A program made the position numbers and the translations under genes. From the NCBI RefSeq assembly GCF_000184345.1, contig NC_017583.1:558001-622000 (forward strand): DNA of 64,000 nt, written 5' to 3'. Shown one piece after another: positions 38,545-46,019 of this stretch. Within the stretch, counting starts at the first letter, position 1. Every line of letters starts with the position of its first letter. The notes beneath the pieces were generated by a model that saw nothing but the letters and a program-made list of their open reading frames with translations, was not told the origin of the DNA and searched no databases. This stretch comes from Spirochaeta thermophila DSM 6578 (GTDB taxonomy: Bacteria > Spirochaetota > Spirochaetia > Winmispirales > Winmispiraceae).

Positions 38545-38561
38545 TTCAGGGGAGGTGTGTG

Positions 38562-39515
38562 ATGTGGAGACGAGGTGCCCTGGTCGTACTCGTAGGTGTC
38601 CTCGCTGCAGGTCTGCTTCCTGCGGGTGGGGTCTCCGAAGATGAGGCGGTACCCGATGAGGTGCGCCTCACCCTTTTCCTGGGACCGACCGCCCTCGGAT
38701 TCATCCCCCTCCTCGAGGCGGGGGAGGTAGGCGGGGTGCCGCTCTCGTACGAGCTCGTGCCCCAGCCGGATGTGGCGGTCTCCCGCATACTCGCAGGCGA
38801 GACGGACGTGGCGGCGCTCCCGGTGAACCTCGCGGCGCGCCTCTACAACGGGGGAGCCGACTACCGCATGGCGGCGATGTACCTGTGGGGGCTCCTCTAC
38901 CTGGTGGCGCCTGAGCCGGTCACCCTCGAGGGGCTCGCCGGCAGGCGGGTCTACGTGCCGGGCAAAGGGGCCACGCCCGATCTCGTCTTCCGGTTTCTGC
39001 TCGAGAAGCGGGGCATAGAGGGGGTGGAGCTGGACTACAGCCTCCCGCCTGCAGGGCTCGCCCAGGCGGTGGCGGCCGGCAAGGTGGACTACGCCCTCCT
39101 GCCCGAGCCGTTCGTGAGCAGGGTGCTCGCCCTGCGGGAGGACCTCGTGGTGGCGCTCGACCTCCAGGCCGAGTGGGAGCGCGAGGTGGGAACCCCCCTC
39201 ACCCAGACGTGCATCGTGGTGAAGGGCGAGTTCCTCGAGCACCACCCGGCCTTCTGGAAGGAGGTGCGGCGCGCCATCGAGGAGTCGATCCACCAGGTGG
39301 TGGCCGATCCGGACGCGACGGCCTCCTCGCCGGTGGTGGAGAAGCTCGGACTCACGGCCGACCTTGCGAGGGCCGCGATCCCGCGGTGCAGGCTGAGCTA
39401 TGTGCCGGCACGGGAGGCCCGCCAGGCCGTGGAGGCCTACCTGGGGGTGCTCCTGGAGTACGCGCCAGGCTCGGTGGGTGGGGCGCTTCCCCCGGCGGAG
39501 TGGTACGTGGAGTGA
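38562..39515 (+). CDS. SsuA/THI5-like substrate-binding protein, orphan
   Basis: 317-residue periplasmic binding protein of the NMT1/TauA/SsuA type: signal peptide at residues 1-24 (ALVVLVGVLAAGLLPAGG), then LTLFLGPTALGFIPLLEAGE, GETDVAALPVNLAARLYNGG and a second lobe GKVDYALLPEPFVSRVL. Such proteins carry sulfonates, taurine, nitrate or pyrimidine/thiamine precursors. No permease or ATPase adjoins it, so the ligand is unknown. GTG 38559 directly before the ATG could also start. Confidence 0.85.
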   Translation: MWRRGALVVLVGVLAAGLLPAGGVSEDEAVPDEVRLTLFLGPTALGFIPLLEAGEVGGVPLSYELVPQPDVAVSRILAGETDVAALPVNLAARLYNGGADYRMAAMYLWGLLYLVAPEPVTLEGLAGRRVYVPGKGATPDLVFRFLLEKRGIEGVELDYSLPPAGLAQAVAAGKVDYALLPEPFVSRVLALREDLVVALDLQAEWEREVGTPLTQTCIVVKGEFLEHHPAFWKEVRRAIEESIHQVVADPDATASSPVVEKLGLTADLARAAIPRCRLSYVPAREARQAVEAYLGVLLEYAPGSVGGALPPAEWYVE

Positions 39516-39591: not shown

Positions 39592-41253
<1,662 letters not shown>

Positions 41254-41284
41254 GCTCGGATCTTACTTGCCTCATCATGAGGGA

Positions 41285-41319
41285 AGTGCCTCCGGAAGGC
41301 CGGAGGCACTTTTTGTTTT
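41285..41319 (+). terminator. Rho-independent terminator after gpmI
   Basis: AGTGCCTCCGG (41285-41295), loop AAGG, CCGGAGGCACT (41300-41310), then TTTTGTTTT. Perfect 11-bp stem. Confidence 0.93.
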
Positions 41320-41345
41320 GAACCGATCTCGTTGTGTGATATAAT
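41318..41345 (+). promoter_or_regulatory. Promoter of the first outer-membrane-like protein gene
   Basis: TTGAAC (41318-41323), 16 bases, TATAAT (41340-41345), directly after the gpmI terminator. Leader of about 25 bases with AAGGGGG before the ATG. Confidence 0.7.
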
Positions 41346-41375: not shown

Positions 41376-42587
41376 ATGAAAAAAGCTCATATGCTCTCTG
41401 CCATGATCCTTCTTGCTCCCATTCTCTCCGGGCTGGAGGTGCAGGTAGAGGCGCCTCAGGTTGATTTTTCCCGTCTTGAACAGGAGCTAAATGCGGCGTA
41501 TGGGGAAATCTTTGATCTCTCAAGCCTTGAAACCCAGATGAACGCCGATCTCGCCTCGCTTGCTGCTGCACTTGAGGCAGATCTCCGAGATCGGTTAGTG
41601 GAGGCGGATGTGGAAGCAGAGTTGCTCCTCAAGGGATTTTCCACTGCAGCGGTATTCGCCTCTCATGCAGGGGGTATGCGTTCTTCTCCGGATTACTCGT
41701 TCATCCAGGTAAGTGTGGGGGGTGCCTTCGGATTCCAGAATCCTTCATCGTTTCCTTTCAACGTAGGGAGTCTCTACGAGGCGGCGGAGGAGACCTTCAA
41801 TGTGCTCGCGGGAGGGAGTATCCAGCTGGGTGCAGAAGTAGGATTCAACCTTTCTTTTCTGGTGCCCGGCCTCCATGTGGGGGTGAGGTTCGGTAAATTC
41901 ATGCTCGATGACCTTGCTCTCACGAAAGAGGTGTTTCTCTCCTATGACCTCACCCTGGTGGGACTCAGTGCGTCGTATCCTCTTATCAATGGGGTGGGAG
42001 CAGGGGGAATAGGATGGTCAGGGATTCATGCAGGCACAGGAGTCCTCTACGAAGGGCTCAGCACCGTGTATTCCAGAAGTTTTTCCTCGTTCTATGAAGC
42101 GAGCTCACAGTCCTATTCTCCTGTGTACAGCGGGAATTACCATCTGGAGATACCAGCAGGTCCGACCCTGGAGCTTATCCCATGGGTAGATCTTAAGATG
42201 ACCAGTTCTCAGGTAGTGGTGCCTTTGGAGATACTCACAGGGTTTTCGACGCCTCTTTTTCGGATGATAGGAGGAGGTGGTGTGGATCTCGCCTTTGGAA
42301 GTTCTCGGCTGGAGGTGAGTTGCGGTTCTTCGGTGAAAATGGATGGCACAATAGAGGTGTGGGGCCCCAGCCAGGTGGAGGAGGTAAAATCGATCTCCTC
42401 GTACGCTTCTTCCTCTAGCGCGGAAGTGAATGGAGAGGTGGAAACGAGTCCTCTCGCTGTGAACCCCAAGCTCATCATGGGCGCGGGATGGTTTTTGGGA
42501 CCGGTGGTGATCGATACCGGATTGGTACTCTATTTCAACGGAGGAAGCGGCTTCTCTGGAACGCTCTCGGTAGGATGGGTATGGTGA
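41376..42587 (+). CDS. Putative outer-membrane beta-barrel protein, paralog 1
   Basis: 403 residues, no named family recognised. A signal peptide (MKKAHMLSAMILLAPILSG) is followed by a helical segment (about residues 28-80, acidic, Leu/Ala-rich) and then alternating hydrophobic strands rich in Gly, Ser and aromatics up to a terminal Trp (TLSVGWVW), the usual C-terminal mark of outer-membrane barrels. Shares with the next gene the blocks VxAPxVDF, FASHxGxMRSxPxY, GFQxPSxxPF, LAFGSSxL and VNPK with a late GSGF. Codons are less GC-rich than the neighbours. Function unknown; a spirochaete-specific porin-like or surface protein is possible. Confidence 0.75.
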   Translation: MKKAHMLSAMILLAPILSGLEVQVEAPQVDFSRLEQELNAAYGEIFDLSSLETQMNADLASLAAALEADLRDRLVEADVEAELLLKGFSTAAVFASHAGGMRSSPDYSFIQVSVGGAFGFQNPSSFPFNVGSLYEAAEETFNVLAGGSIQLGAEVGFNLSFLVPGLHVGVRFGKFMLDDLALTKEVFLSYDLTLVGLSASYPLINGVGAGGIGWSGIHAGTGVLYEGLSTVYSRSFSSFYEASSQSYSPVYSGNYHLEIPAGPTLELIPWVDLKMTSSQVVVPLEILTGFSTPLFRMIGGGGVDLAFGSSRLEVSCGSSVKMDGTIEVWGPSQVEEVKSISSYASSSSAEVNGEVETSPLAVNPKLIMGAGWFLGPVVIDTGLVLYFNGGSGFSGTLSVGWVW

Positions 42588-42727
42588 GGTGTTGACCTCC
42601 CCGGAACTAGTGTTTCCTCAAAGGTGTTTCGCATATATGTGCTCCAACGATGGAAAAACTCGTGTGCATGCACTATATTGTGAAAGGTGAGACACCAAAT
42701 CTTTTAAATTTTATTATGGAGGCATGC

Positions 42728-43900
42728 ATGCGAAGGATACTGGTAGTCCTTGTGACAGTGCTCCTCGTGGCGGGCATGGCCGCGGCAGCAGAGGTGAAGG
42801 TGACAGCTCCAACCGTGGATTTCGGCTCGGACACGCCATATGATGAGATCGATACCTTTGTGAACAATGTGCTCAAGACCCTTGCTCAGAAGGTGGAGTC
42901 GGATCTCAATGAACGGATCGGGGCATTCGAACAGCCCGCCTTTGTTGAGGGTATGGCGAATGCAGGGATCTTCGCCTCGCACGTGGGGGTGATGCGTTCC
43001 AGGCCCGAGTACGGCCTGCTCCAGGTGGGGGCGGGGATCGCGATAGGGTTCCAGTCGCCCTCCGCCAATCCGTTCGATGTCGAGGGGATAGGCCAGGCCA
43101 TGGGTGCAGGCGGCGATGTGTTCGCAGGTGTAGGGATTCAAGCGGGCGGACAGGTGGGCCTCAATGCCTCGTTCCTCAAGGAAGGCCTCTTCCTGGGGCT
43201 TCGCTTCGGCCGCATGGACCTCACTTTGCTCGCCGAGGGTATGGGGGACGCCCTCCCCGAAGGGCTTTCGGGTTCTCTGTCGGTGATAGGGCTTCTCGCC
43301 AACTATCAGCTGGTGAAGCCCATAGATCTCATGGTGGTGCGCTGGCGAGGGGTGATGGTGGGATCGGGTCTCATTTACCAGGGCCTCGAGGTGAAGTACC
43401 AGCCCGACGTGGGGCCTGTTTCGGCTGAACAGACGGTAGCCGAGGACATTGATGGCGGTGGAAAGGACGAGACGGGTACTGTGACCCTCACCGTTGTGCC
43501 CGAGATTGAAGTTGGTGTGAAGACTGGAACGGTGACCATCCCTCTTGAAGTCTCCACTGGTATGCGGGTGCTCGTGCTCAACGTGAGCGGAGGGCTTGGG
43601 GCGGATCTGGCCTTCGGCTCGAGCAATCTCATTTTCAATGCGAATGCAGACATAGAGGCCTCGGGGTCTATCACTCATGGTGAGACAGGGGCAAATCTCT
43701 CTATTGATTCCTCGTCCGTCACTCCCGGGTCCGCGACCTTGGACGCGGGGACGGACGGCGGGCCCTCTTTCGTCAACCCCAAGGTCTTCGCGAGCATCGG
43801 TCTGCTCCTGGGGCCCGTGTCCCTCGAGATACCCTTCACCTACTATATCAACAAAGGGTCCGGGTTCAACGCAGGGATCACGCTCGGGCTTACCTTCTAG
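42728..43900 (+). CDS. Putative outer-membrane beta-barrel protein, paralog 2
   Basis: 390 residues, paralog of the preceding protein. Signal peptide MRRILVVLVTVLLVAGMAAAA, then EVKVTAPTVDFGSD, a helical stretch to about residue 70, the conserved FASHVGVMRSRPEYGLLQVG and GFQSPSANPFDVEG, and a strand-rich C-terminus ending AGITLGLTF with terminal Phe. Start at ATG 42728 is favoured by GGAGG five bases upstream; an upstream in-frame ATG at 42716 overlaps that site. The 140-base gap before it shows no clear terminator or promoter, so cotranscription with paralog 1 is possible. Confidence 0.75.
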   Translation: MRRILVVLVTVLLVAGMAAAAEVKVTAPTVDFGSDTPYDEIDTFVNNVLKTLAQKVESDLNERIGAFEQPAFVEGMANAGIFASHVGVMRSRPEYGLLQVGAGIAIGFQSPSANPFDVEGIGQAMGAGGDVFAGVGIQAGGQVGLNASFLKEGLFLGLRFGRMDLTLLAEGMGDALPEGLSGSLSVIGLLANYQLVKPIDLMVVRWRGVMVGSGLIYQGLEVKYQPDVGPVSAEQTVAEDIDGGGKDETGTVTLTVVPEIEVGVKTGTVTIPLEVSTGMRVLVLNVSGGLGADLAFGSSNLIFNANADIEASGSITHGETGANLSIDSSSVTPGSATLDAGTDGGPSFVNPKVFASIGLLLGPVSLEIPFTYYINKGSGFNAGITLGLTF

Positions 43901-43925
43901 CGGGGTTTCTTAGGAAATGGCTACA

Positions 43926-43950
43926 GGGGCGCCCGAAAGGGCGTCCCTTT
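43926..43950. terminator. Terminator between convergent paralog 2 and pgl
   Basis: GGGGCGCCC, loop GAAA, GGGCGTCCC with one G-U pair, then TTTCTAT on the plus strand. It could serve both convergent genes; the minus-strand side has AGGGA rather than a U-tract, so plus-strand termination is better supported. Confidence 0.75.
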
Positions 43951-44637
43951 CTATCCCAGATCTGTTCCCACTGCGAGCCTGTCCACCTCGAAGGCGAGCT
44001 TCGCAGGGCAGTCGGCGAGGGGGAGCTCCGGGTCGAGAAACCGCCGGTAGGCCTCGCGCTTCCCCTCGCCCATGAAGAGGAGGAGGCAGGCCTCCGAGCT
44101 CTCGAGGAGGGTCTTGCTCGCACTCACCCTCCGGGGTGGGGGCTTGGGGGCCTCTTCCACCTGTATGTAGAAGGGGCTGTCGTCCCAGATCGAGGGATGC
44201 CGCGGAAAGAGTGATGCCACGTGTCCGTCCTCACCTGCTCCCAGCACCACCAGGTGGAAGCCCTCCCTGTAGCCTCTGAGGACGCGCTCGTAGGCCTCGA
44301 GCCCCCAGTCCGCCTCCTCCTCGTGGTACTCGTAGGGGTGCACCTGGTCTTCGGTGATCCACCCCTTCTCCATGAGTGGCCCGAAGAAGACCTGCTCGAG
44401 GAGGGTGTAGTTCCTCTCCGGACTTCCCGAGGGCACGCACCGCTCGTCCACCAGGAAGAAGACGCACCGCTCCCACGGGAGGTCTTCCCTCTGCCTCAAG
44501 GCCTCGAGCACGGGTACCACCGACCGCCCGCCGGGAAGCCCCACCACGAGGTGCGGTTCCGGCCTGTAAAGGGCGAGCACCTCGGCTATCCACTCCGCCG
44601 CCCGCGCCACCCCTGTGCGAAGGTCGAGACGTTCCAT
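43951..44637 (-). CDS. pgl: 6-phosphogluconolactonase
   Basis: Second step of the oxidative pentose phosphate pathway, DevB/SOL type, 228 residues. Seen blocks: LVVGLPGGRSVVPVLEAL, WERCVFFLVDERCVPSGSPERNY, FHLVVLGAGEDGHVASLFP and the C-terminal PPRRVSASKTLLESS. An upstream extension of 77 codons falls inside the IS256-type element and is not part of the gene. There is no clear ribosome-binding site before ATG 44637, and the predicted promoter places the transcript start right at the start codon, so a leaderless mRNA is possible. Confidence 0.92.
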   Translation of the reverse strand: MERLDLRTGVARAAEWIAEVLALYRPEPHLVVGLPGGRSVVPVLEALRQREDLPWERCVFFLVDERCVPSGSPERNYTLLEQVFFGPLMEKGWITEDQVHPYEYHEEEADWGLEAYERVLRGYREGFHLVVLGAGEDGHVASLFPRHPSIWDDSPFYIQVEEAPKPPPRRVSASKTLLESSEACLLLFMGEGKREAYRRFLDPELPLADCPAKLAFEVDRLAVGTDLG

Positions 44638-44675: not shown

Positions 44676-46019
44676 GGGACTGTAACATCGAGTGTTGAAA
44701 AAGGCGGGGAAAAAAGATAAGGGGTATCTCCCACCACCAAACCTCTGAAAGAAGGAGGAGATACCCCATGAAGCGTGGTAACACACGCACACTGATTGAT
44801 ACACAGTATACCCTCTCTGATCTGATGAAGCAAGTGGAGGCCCAACTCCGGGAGGAGGTGCGCCACACCTACAAGACGTACCTGGAGCACCTCCTTGAGA
44901 CGCTGAGAGAGGAGGCAGTGGGACGACCACGATATGCACGAGGGGAGGCTGAGAAGGCACCGTACTACCGGTACGGCTACAGAAAGTGGAAGAGCGTGCA
45001 GACCCCCTGGGGGCCGATCGAGGAGGTACGCGTGCCCCGCATTCGCACCGGCGGGGGGAAGGAGGTAAAGCTGGTCGCCTATGAGCAGAGGCTCGTGGCC
45101 CTCGCTGAGCAGCTCCTCCTTGGGTATGTGAGAGGGATGAGCGCGCGGACGTGGGCCATTCTGTTACGGGAGCTGGGGATAGGAGAGGCTCACCCGCAGA
45201 CACTCCTGCGGCTCATAAAGCGTCTTCGTGAGGAGAAGGAGCAGTGGCGGAGGAGGTCCCTTAGAGGAGTGAAGGCCCTTGTGCTGGATGGAGTGTGGGC
45301 AAAGAGGCGTGGGAGGGGTCAGAAGAAGCTGGTTGTCCTGAGTGCCGTGGGGGTGAAGGAGGACGGATCTCATGAGCTCCTCGACTGGGTGGTTGCGGAG
45401 CAGGAGGACCGGGCGAGCTACGAGCGACTCCTTACCAAACTCTATGAGCGAGGGCTTGAGGAGGTGGAGCTGGTGGTGGCCGATGAGGCAGAGGGGATCT
45501 GGCAGGCGGTGGAGACCGTGTATCCTGAGGCGAAGAAGCAGGTATGCCTCTGGCACCTGCAATGCACCCTTGAGCAGAAGCTTCTGCAGGATATGGGGGA
45601 CCAGAAGGGGAAGAAGGCTCACCTCCAGGAGGAGAGGCGAGCCTTTCGGACTGAGTACTGGAGGCTCTTTGAGGCAGGAGGGAAGGAGGAGGCAGAGGAA
45701 GCGTTCGAGGCATTCGTGAAGAAGTGGGCGACGAAGGCCCCCCGGATGACGGCTGCTCTCCTGTGGCGGAAGGAGCGGCTCTTCTCCTATCTGGAGTTAC
45801 CCTATGAGTGGAAGGAGAAGGTGAGGACGAGCAACCTTGCGGAGAACATGTTTCGGCACATGAGAAGCTTTCTACGGAGGTATCCTGGGTATATGAGCCG
45901 TGCCCATGCAGATGAGGTGGTAGGCCTCTACGTGGTGGGCATGCAGGTGATACAAGAGGTGGGGAGATGCACCCCTTATCAACTCCAGCTCAATTTCAAC
46001 ACTCCCCCTTGACAGTGCC
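44676..46019 (+). mobile_element. Intact IS256-type element, 1344 bp
   Basis: Ends GGGACTGTAACATCGAGTG (left) and the complement of GGCACTGTCAAGGGGGAGTG (right), imperfect inverted repeats sharing ACTGT, AA and GAGTGTTGAAA. An 8-base target duplication AGTGAATA is present at 44668-44675 and 46020-46027, the size expected for this family. It carries one transposase gene. It separates pgl from tRNA-Thr, both of which keep their promoters. Confidence 0.93.
44768..46012 (+). CDS. IS256-type transposase, intact
   Basis: 414-residue Mutator-superfamily transposase. GAAGGAGGAG precedes the ATG. Landmarks: LVLDGVWAKRRGRGQ (first catalytic Asp), VADEAEGIWQAVE with CLWHLQ (second), and TSNLAENMFRHMRSFL (Glu), plus a cysteine-poor, lysine-rich N-terminus. 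It is full length compared with the truncated copy at 6732-7901. Confidence 0.94.
   Translation: MKRGNTRTLIDTQYTLSDLMKQVEAQLREEVRHTYKTYLEHLLETLREEAVGRPRYARGEAEKAPYYRYGYRKWKSVQTPWGPIEEVRVPRIRTGGGKEVKLVAYEQRLVALAEQLLLGYVRGMSARTWAILLRELGIGEAHPQTLLRLIKRLREEKEQWRRRSLRGVKALVLDGVWAKRRGRGQKKLVVLSAVGVKEDGSHELLDWVVAEQEDRASYERLLTKLYERGLEEVELVVADEAEGIWQAVETVYPEAKKQVCLWHLQCTLEQKLLQDMGDQKGKKAHLQEERRAFRTEYWRLFEAGGKEEAEEAFEAFVKKWATKAPRMTAALLWRKERLFSYLELPYEWKEKVRTSNLAENMFRHMRSFLRRYPGYMSRAHADEVVGLYVVGMQVIQEVGRCTPYQLQLNFNTPP

Follow-up and report, generated by a model that had tools for sequence, protein, structure and literature searches.

The proteins considered here belong to a family that NCBIfam records as NF047512 (LIC_11975_fam, 'Lsa36 family surface (lipo)protein') and that takes its name from a pathogen adhesin, Lsa36 or LIC11975 of Leptospira interrogans. 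Recombinant Lsa36 is reported to bind laminin, plasminogen and fibronectin (PMC4388678) and to partly inhibit fibrin clotting (PMC8657130), and the protein has been predicted to lie in the outer membrane (PMC2387172; PMC5348505). One comparison reports the gene from saprophytic and intermediate species of Leptospira as well as from pathogenic ones (PMC4758666); in an older table, LBH and LSS stand at 0% identity and another genome at 38% (PMC3757074). The parts of the literature reached by our search held no solved structure or mechanism for any member of the family, and PMC2698987 makes no mention of LIC11975; a search for papers naming NF047512 returned none, and the same literature yielded no ligand of a free-living member.

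A tandem pair of Lsa36-family genes

In the window, a stretch of 64,000 nucleotides from the single-contig genome of Spirochaeta thermophila DSM 6578 (2,560,222 bases), two genes on the + strand lie between gpmI, coding for the 2,3-bisphosphoglycerate-independent phosphoglycerate mutase (39592-41253), and a 6-phosphogluconolactonase-like gene (pgl, from 43951) on the other strand. A gene for a secreted-looking NMT1/MqnA-like binding protein (38559-39515; PF02621, PF09084) stands upstream of gpmI. Copy 1 of the pair (41376..42587) codes for 403 residues and copy 2 (42728..43900) for 390; the products align at 34.5% identity over 383 positions and recover each other far beyond chance (E 5.8e-47 for copy 2 with a 375-aa query of copy 1, and E 3.1e-54 for copy 1 with copy 2 as the query), which bears out the tandem paralogy claimed in an earlier note made from the sequence of this DNA. 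The details given in that note are also present in both copies: signal peptides, assigned by eye (copy 1, 41376..41435; copy 2, 42728..42793, MRRILVVLVTVLLVAGMAAAAE; both + strand), a mature N-terminus of the form VxAPxVDF (VEAPQVDF and VTAPTVDF, respectively), two common blocks (FASHAGGMRSSPDY and GFQNPSSFPF in copy 1, FASHVGVMRSRPEY and GFQSPSANPF in copy 2), and an aromatic last residue (W in copy 1, F in copy 2). Residues F, W or Y also end 26 of the 41 rows of our family alignment, some of which stop at the end of the HMM match. Neither copy has a lipobox cysteine at the signal cleavage site, as a bacterial lipoprotein would; copy 2 is devoid of Cys and copy 1 has a single one, at residue 316. 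A weak match to the lipoprotein signal LPAM_1 (E 5, below the cut-off) arose from a query that included one extra codon upstream, for Cys.

The profile search proposed in the earlier note gave a named family, contrary to its statement that none could be recognised: both copies exceed the NF047512 cut-off of 90 bits, copy 1 with 157.1 bits (profile positions 28-369 of 369) and copy 2 with 283.1 bits over the full profile (1-369). They are hence diverged paralogues within the Lsa36 (LIC_11975) family, a known but poorly understood one; what is new is two further members. At E <= 0.001 the profile also matches all 29 members of our alignment A1, whose relatives are no independent test of family membership as they were found by searching with NF047512 itself, and all 13 members of A6, for which relatives were collected using an alignment that combined the window proteins with near relatives. 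Pfam gave nothing relevant for either copy or for 29 relatives (four families, each with one weak match), a PDB sequence search with the window proteins gave nothing, and a genome scan with copy 2 alone returned 71 stretches containing no relative.

Though it is named after a pathogen adhesin, the family turns up in 104 of 392 genomes sampled from the phylum (E <= 0.001; 79 of them over the cut-off), representing 64 of 167 genera, and in none of 14 control genomes; in the window it is doubled. Same-strand neighbouring matches within about 1.5 kb also occur in genomes G006, G087, G131 and G174, those of G131 and G174 including partial ones. Two members come from metagenome-assembled contigs labelled Halobacteriovoraceae and Deltaproteobacteria (L047:7887-8912 and L048:3657-4658); if correctly binned, these are members from beyond the spirochaetes, but such genomes may be misbinned. 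In two Spirochaetota contigs of the same kind (L039:9627-10595 and L045:6840-7826) the Lsa36 gene is followed by the same two small genes on the opposite strand, 50% and 65% identical between the contigs, a conserved neighborhood.

Gene starts, transcription signals and base composition

For copy 2 we take the ATG at 42728 as the start, rather than position 42650, where the longer mechanical ORF begins, because a Shine-Dalgarno sequence (GGAGG, 42718..42722, + strand) stands five bases upstream of it, the signal peptide begins there, and the same start is common to the sister genome (G006, same genus; 2,472,645 bases). The sequence TTTATTATGGAGGCATGC around this site is identical in the two genomes and most of the remaining spacer differs. 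A probable intrinsic terminator follows gpmI (41281..41325, + strand; −25.7 kcal/mol), with a stem of 15 pairs that includes some of the T run and with a T-rich tail, and it probably sets copy 1 apart from gpmI. A promoter-like site, TTGAAC-16-TATAAT (41318..41345, + strand), agrees with the consensus at 10 of 12 positions and ends 30 bases before the start of copy 1; the consensus scan by which it was assigned found four sites of this grade in the region against 1.2 expected, and GTATAATA also stands upstream of copy 1 in the sister genome. Another hairpin, a possible terminator, follows copy 2 (43911..43960, + strand; −23.9 kcal/mol). Both hairpins are visible by folding and absent from a consensus terminator scan; like the promoter-like site and the Shine-Dalgarno sequence, they are sequence patterns that suggest how the pair may be expressed.

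Copy 1 is less GC-rich than its surroundings, as had been noticed earlier (53.5%, against 60% for copy 2 and 61.5% for the window); at third positions the values are 56% for copy 1, 72% for copy 2 and 88% for gpmI. The sister orthologues show the same trend more weakly (56.3% versus 60.9%), and with an orthologue of lower GC at the same place in that genome, we do not favor recent import of copy 1. Between pgl and secE/nusG lies a gene for a Mutator-family transposase (44768-46012; PF00872, 167 bits). In the sister genome, the 16 kb surrounding this locus contain nothing that matches its protein at E 1e-5, and the gene therefore looks like an insertion in this lineage.

Predicted fold

AlphaFold2 models built from 13 sequences (mean pLDDT 82.2 for copy 1 and 77.7 for copy 2; pTM 0.69 each) present both proteins as a helical N-terminal module followed by a β-barrel. 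The module of copy 1 (aa 21-109; 41436..41702, + strand) has predicted helices at 32-42, 49-75 and 81-97, and that of copy 2 (aa 23-97; 42794..43018, + strand) at 39-64 and 69-85. The predicted barrels (copy 1, aa 110-403, 41703..42584; copy 2, aa 98-390, 43019..43897; both + strand) have ten strands each, with count and boundaries read by hand from DSSP strings, and four long stretches of copy 2 (204-240, 247-281, 284-316 and 334-361) were taken as tall hairpins above the membrane. When the models were compared with known structures using VIA-align, the designed 10-stranded barrel TMB10 matched copy 2 with Z 15.5 (2.6 Å, 139 of 141 residues) and copy 1 with Z 14.1 (2.5 Å, 138 of 142 residues). 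Together with OpcA, the omptins and a Legionella porin it leads the matches (Z 12.5-15.5); autotransporter domains, which have 12 strands, rank just after them (up to Z 12.8 and 12.4). Foldseek likewise returned outer-membrane barrels (best E 5.7e-7 and 7.6e-7), with poor superpositions among the 50 matches listed per model (TM by query length 0.10-0.28, rmsd 15-32 Å).

The predicted strands alternate between hydrophobic and hydrophilic residues: the ten-strand mean is 2.95 in copy 2 against 1.26 in controls (reached in 0 of 5000 draws) and 2.04 in copy 1 against 1.23 (p=0.006), the controls being windows drawn from five neighboring ORFs. As the strands were taken from the model, this is no independent discovery of them; strand 4 departs from the pattern in both proteins, alternating little or not at all (1.3/1.3 and 1.1/0.4). 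Together with the signal peptides and the aromatic last residues, an even number of amphipathic strands supports a predicted outer-membrane barrel with an N-terminal helical module for each copy, in line with the interpretation of the earlier note, which had held that structure prediction giving a soluble fold would speak against it.

Divergence between sister genomes and history of the pair

The pair is conserved as such at the same locus of the sister genome, and it diverges far more than its neighbors: copy 1 is 51.9% and copy 2 79.5% identical to its orthologue, as against 89.6-99.5% for the surrounding proteins (asnS 92.7, NMT1-like 95.0, gpmI 96.9, pgl 89.6 over 241 aligned residues, and nusG 99.5). 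The two common blocks are retained only partly in sister copy 1 (FASHAGSIRSVLDY and GFQNPTSVPF). With segment boundaries set by hand, the strands are better conserved than the predicted outer segments, both in copy 1 (92 of 152 versus 52 of 121 residues identical; Fisher p=0.005) and in copy 2 (132 of 146 versus 93 of 129; p=0.0001). Much of the divergence falls in two predicted extracellular hairpins, L3 and L4. For L3, 12 of 37 residues are identical in copy 1 (aa 236-272; 42081..42191) and 24 of 38 in copy 2 (aa 225-262; 43400..43513); for L4, 17 of 52 in copy 1 (aa 310-361; 42303..42458) and 34 of 50 in copy 2 (aa 299-348; 43622..43771), all on the + strand. Divergence is, however, not confined to the surface, given that the predicted loop L1 is conserved (19 of 23 and 20 of 23 residues) and that the helical module of copy 1, with 30 of 89 residues identical, varies as much as the outer hairpins. 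By dN/dS no positive selection is shown, the values being below 1 in both pairs (NG86, 0.42/2.55 for copy 1, where dS is near saturation, and 0.13/0.82 for copy 2; YN00, 0.12/1.09 for the copy 2 pair).

Across the 41 family rows, the best conserved residues include the glycines G134, G188, G208, G214, G289 and G291 of strands 2, 4, 5 and 7, with those of strands 2, 5 and 7 (G134, G208, G214, G289 and G291) kept in 40 or 41 rows; N146, Y193 and T277 and, in helix 2, A79 and M76 also belong to this set. Judged from the strand alternation, most of these glycines would face inward. Conservation is higher in helix 2 than in helix 1 (2.06 versus 1.48 bits), and within the barrel it is lowest in L2 (0.92 bits) and L3 (1.03 bits).

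Outside the genus, a genome from another genus of the same family (G138) has the order NMT1-like, gpmI, one Lsa36 gene, pgl, secE, nusG. The single copy at this locus shows 44.6% identity with copy 2 and 27.1% with copy 1, and a second member elsewhere on the contig is 30.4% and 28.0% identical to them, respectively. In a phylogenetic tree each copy joins its sister orthologue at 100/100. The two copies are not each other's sisters, and copy 1 groups with nine other rows at 93/96, in a node that is not starred and lacks strong support. The tree carries warnings for L048 as a long row and for L048 and G138_other as rows of odd composition. Consequently, the duplication may predate the genus, or copy 1 may have been misplaced through fast change. 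Copy 2 likely holds the ancestral place, with copy 1 as its faster-changing partner.

Possible functions of the pair

We propose that both copies would be exported by an ordinary, rather than lipoprotein, signal peptide, and that each would form an outer-membrane barrel of about ten strands, with the helical segment on the periplasmic side leading into strand 1 and the tall β-hairpins L3 and L4 on the cell surface. There the outer hairpins may contact the surroundings and change quickly, such that the proteins would serve in surface interaction or attachment rather than as wide diffusion pores. Outer-membrane location, a barrel formed by a single chain, its orientation and its function are all what we infer from the predicted fold and topology, and we give this reading about an even chance of being right.

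A distinctly less probable alternative, albeit a real one, is that they are small solute channels, in which the conserved glycines leave a lumen that is gated by the N-terminal helix or by the conserved L1. In keeping with this, strands 2, 5 and 7 carry some of the best conserved residues, glycines on the hydrophilic side, which presumably points inward; in VIA-align, a Legionella porin ranks first for copy 1 (Z 14.6) and fourth for copy 2 (Z 14.2); and a model-based study classes LIC11975 as a putative porin (PMC9586249). The NMT1/MqnA-like gene, kept upstream of gpmI in the window, the sister genome and G138, could also hint at uptake, but gpmI and the probable terminator after it intervene between that gene and the pair. 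A 10-stranded barrel is, moreover, narrow for a diffusion pore; the known examples tend to be adhesins and enzymes (OpcA, OmpT) rather than general porins. Our preference for interaction barrels over diffusion pores comes from the apparently small size of the barrel and the fast change of its outer hairpins.

It appears improbable that the second helix (aa 69-85 of copy 2) occupies the interior of the barrel, as in the translocators of autotransporters or in FapF, to give a plugged or peptide-threading barrel. The higher conservation of helix 2 would suit such an arrangement, as would the VIA-align results for autotransporter domains: the aligned ranges of EspP, NalP, Hbp and AIDA-I, spanning 209-245 residues at Z 9.6-12.8, begin in the helix region (57-66 in copy 2, mostly 69-81 in copy 1). 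Such a range, however, tells no more than where an alignment begins and ends. There are exceptions, as the cleaved EspP domain 2qom aligns from 85 and 100 onward (194 and 199 residues) and NalP 1uyn, in copy 1, from residue 10; and the best-scoring matches cover the barrel only. Nor is there a passenger domain, as only 75-89 residues, the helical module, separate the signal peptide from the barrel.

Far less probable again are outer-membrane enzymes of the OmpT-like fold: OmpT, pOmpT and Pla are among the best VIA-align matches (Z 12.5-13.8), but at 7-10% identity in those alignments, and a shared fold shows no function. Equally remote are soluble or periplasmic proteins, for which the medium model confidence and the poor Foldseek superpositions might speak, against the barrel models, the VIA-align barrel matches and the strand alternation.

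As members of an already named family, the two copies are mostly ordinary, with the fast-changing outer surface as their interesting part. The source organism is, we presume, a free-living thermophile; given this, the wide spread of the family in the phylum and its presence in saprophytic Leptospira, host-matrix binding is unlikely to be the core role of Lsa36 proteins, and a heat-stable member could serve to obtain a structure for the family. More speculatively, and with considerable doubt, Lsa36 might be an old spirochaete barrel type, perhaps present in a few other diderms, whose unusually small barrel takes up a conserved helix in its lumen to give a plugged or gated pore with a fast-changing crown, the adhesion reported in Leptospira being a by-product of this role.

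Comparison with known systems

FapF is a barrel with an N-terminal plug and a coiled coil. It and the translocator domains of autotransporters resemble the window proteins in having a helix beside a medium-size barrel (Z 8.4-12.8), but the window barrels have fewer strands by hand count and come without a passenger; FapF itself aligns at Z 8.4-9.6 from residue 89 or later, and none of the seven neighboring genes scanned with Pfam is fap-like. Closer in fold are the 10-stranded barrels of the Neisseria adhesin OpcA (Z 14.8 for copy 2 and 13.9 for copy 1) and of the omptins OmpT and Pla (together Z 12.5-14.8), at 7-12% identity in structural alignments and with no sequence relation found; to our knowledge, neither OpcA nor the omptins possess an N-terminal helical module.

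The nearest counterpart is Lsa36/LIC11975 itself, whose family profile, NF047512, is matched by both window proteins over nearly its full extent. LIC11975 has likewise been modelled as a β-barrel, on AIDA-I 4mee, in the study that classes it as a putative porin. The matrix binding and clotting inhibition are reported for the Leptospira protein and not for the window proteins. The latter also lack a Cys near the N-terminus, whereas 25 of the 41 Lsa36 rows, 24 from same-phylum genomes outside the window's class plus L047, have a CxGxxC motif just after the signal peptide, a feature of a branch seen in this analysis and not part of the NCBIfam cut-off.
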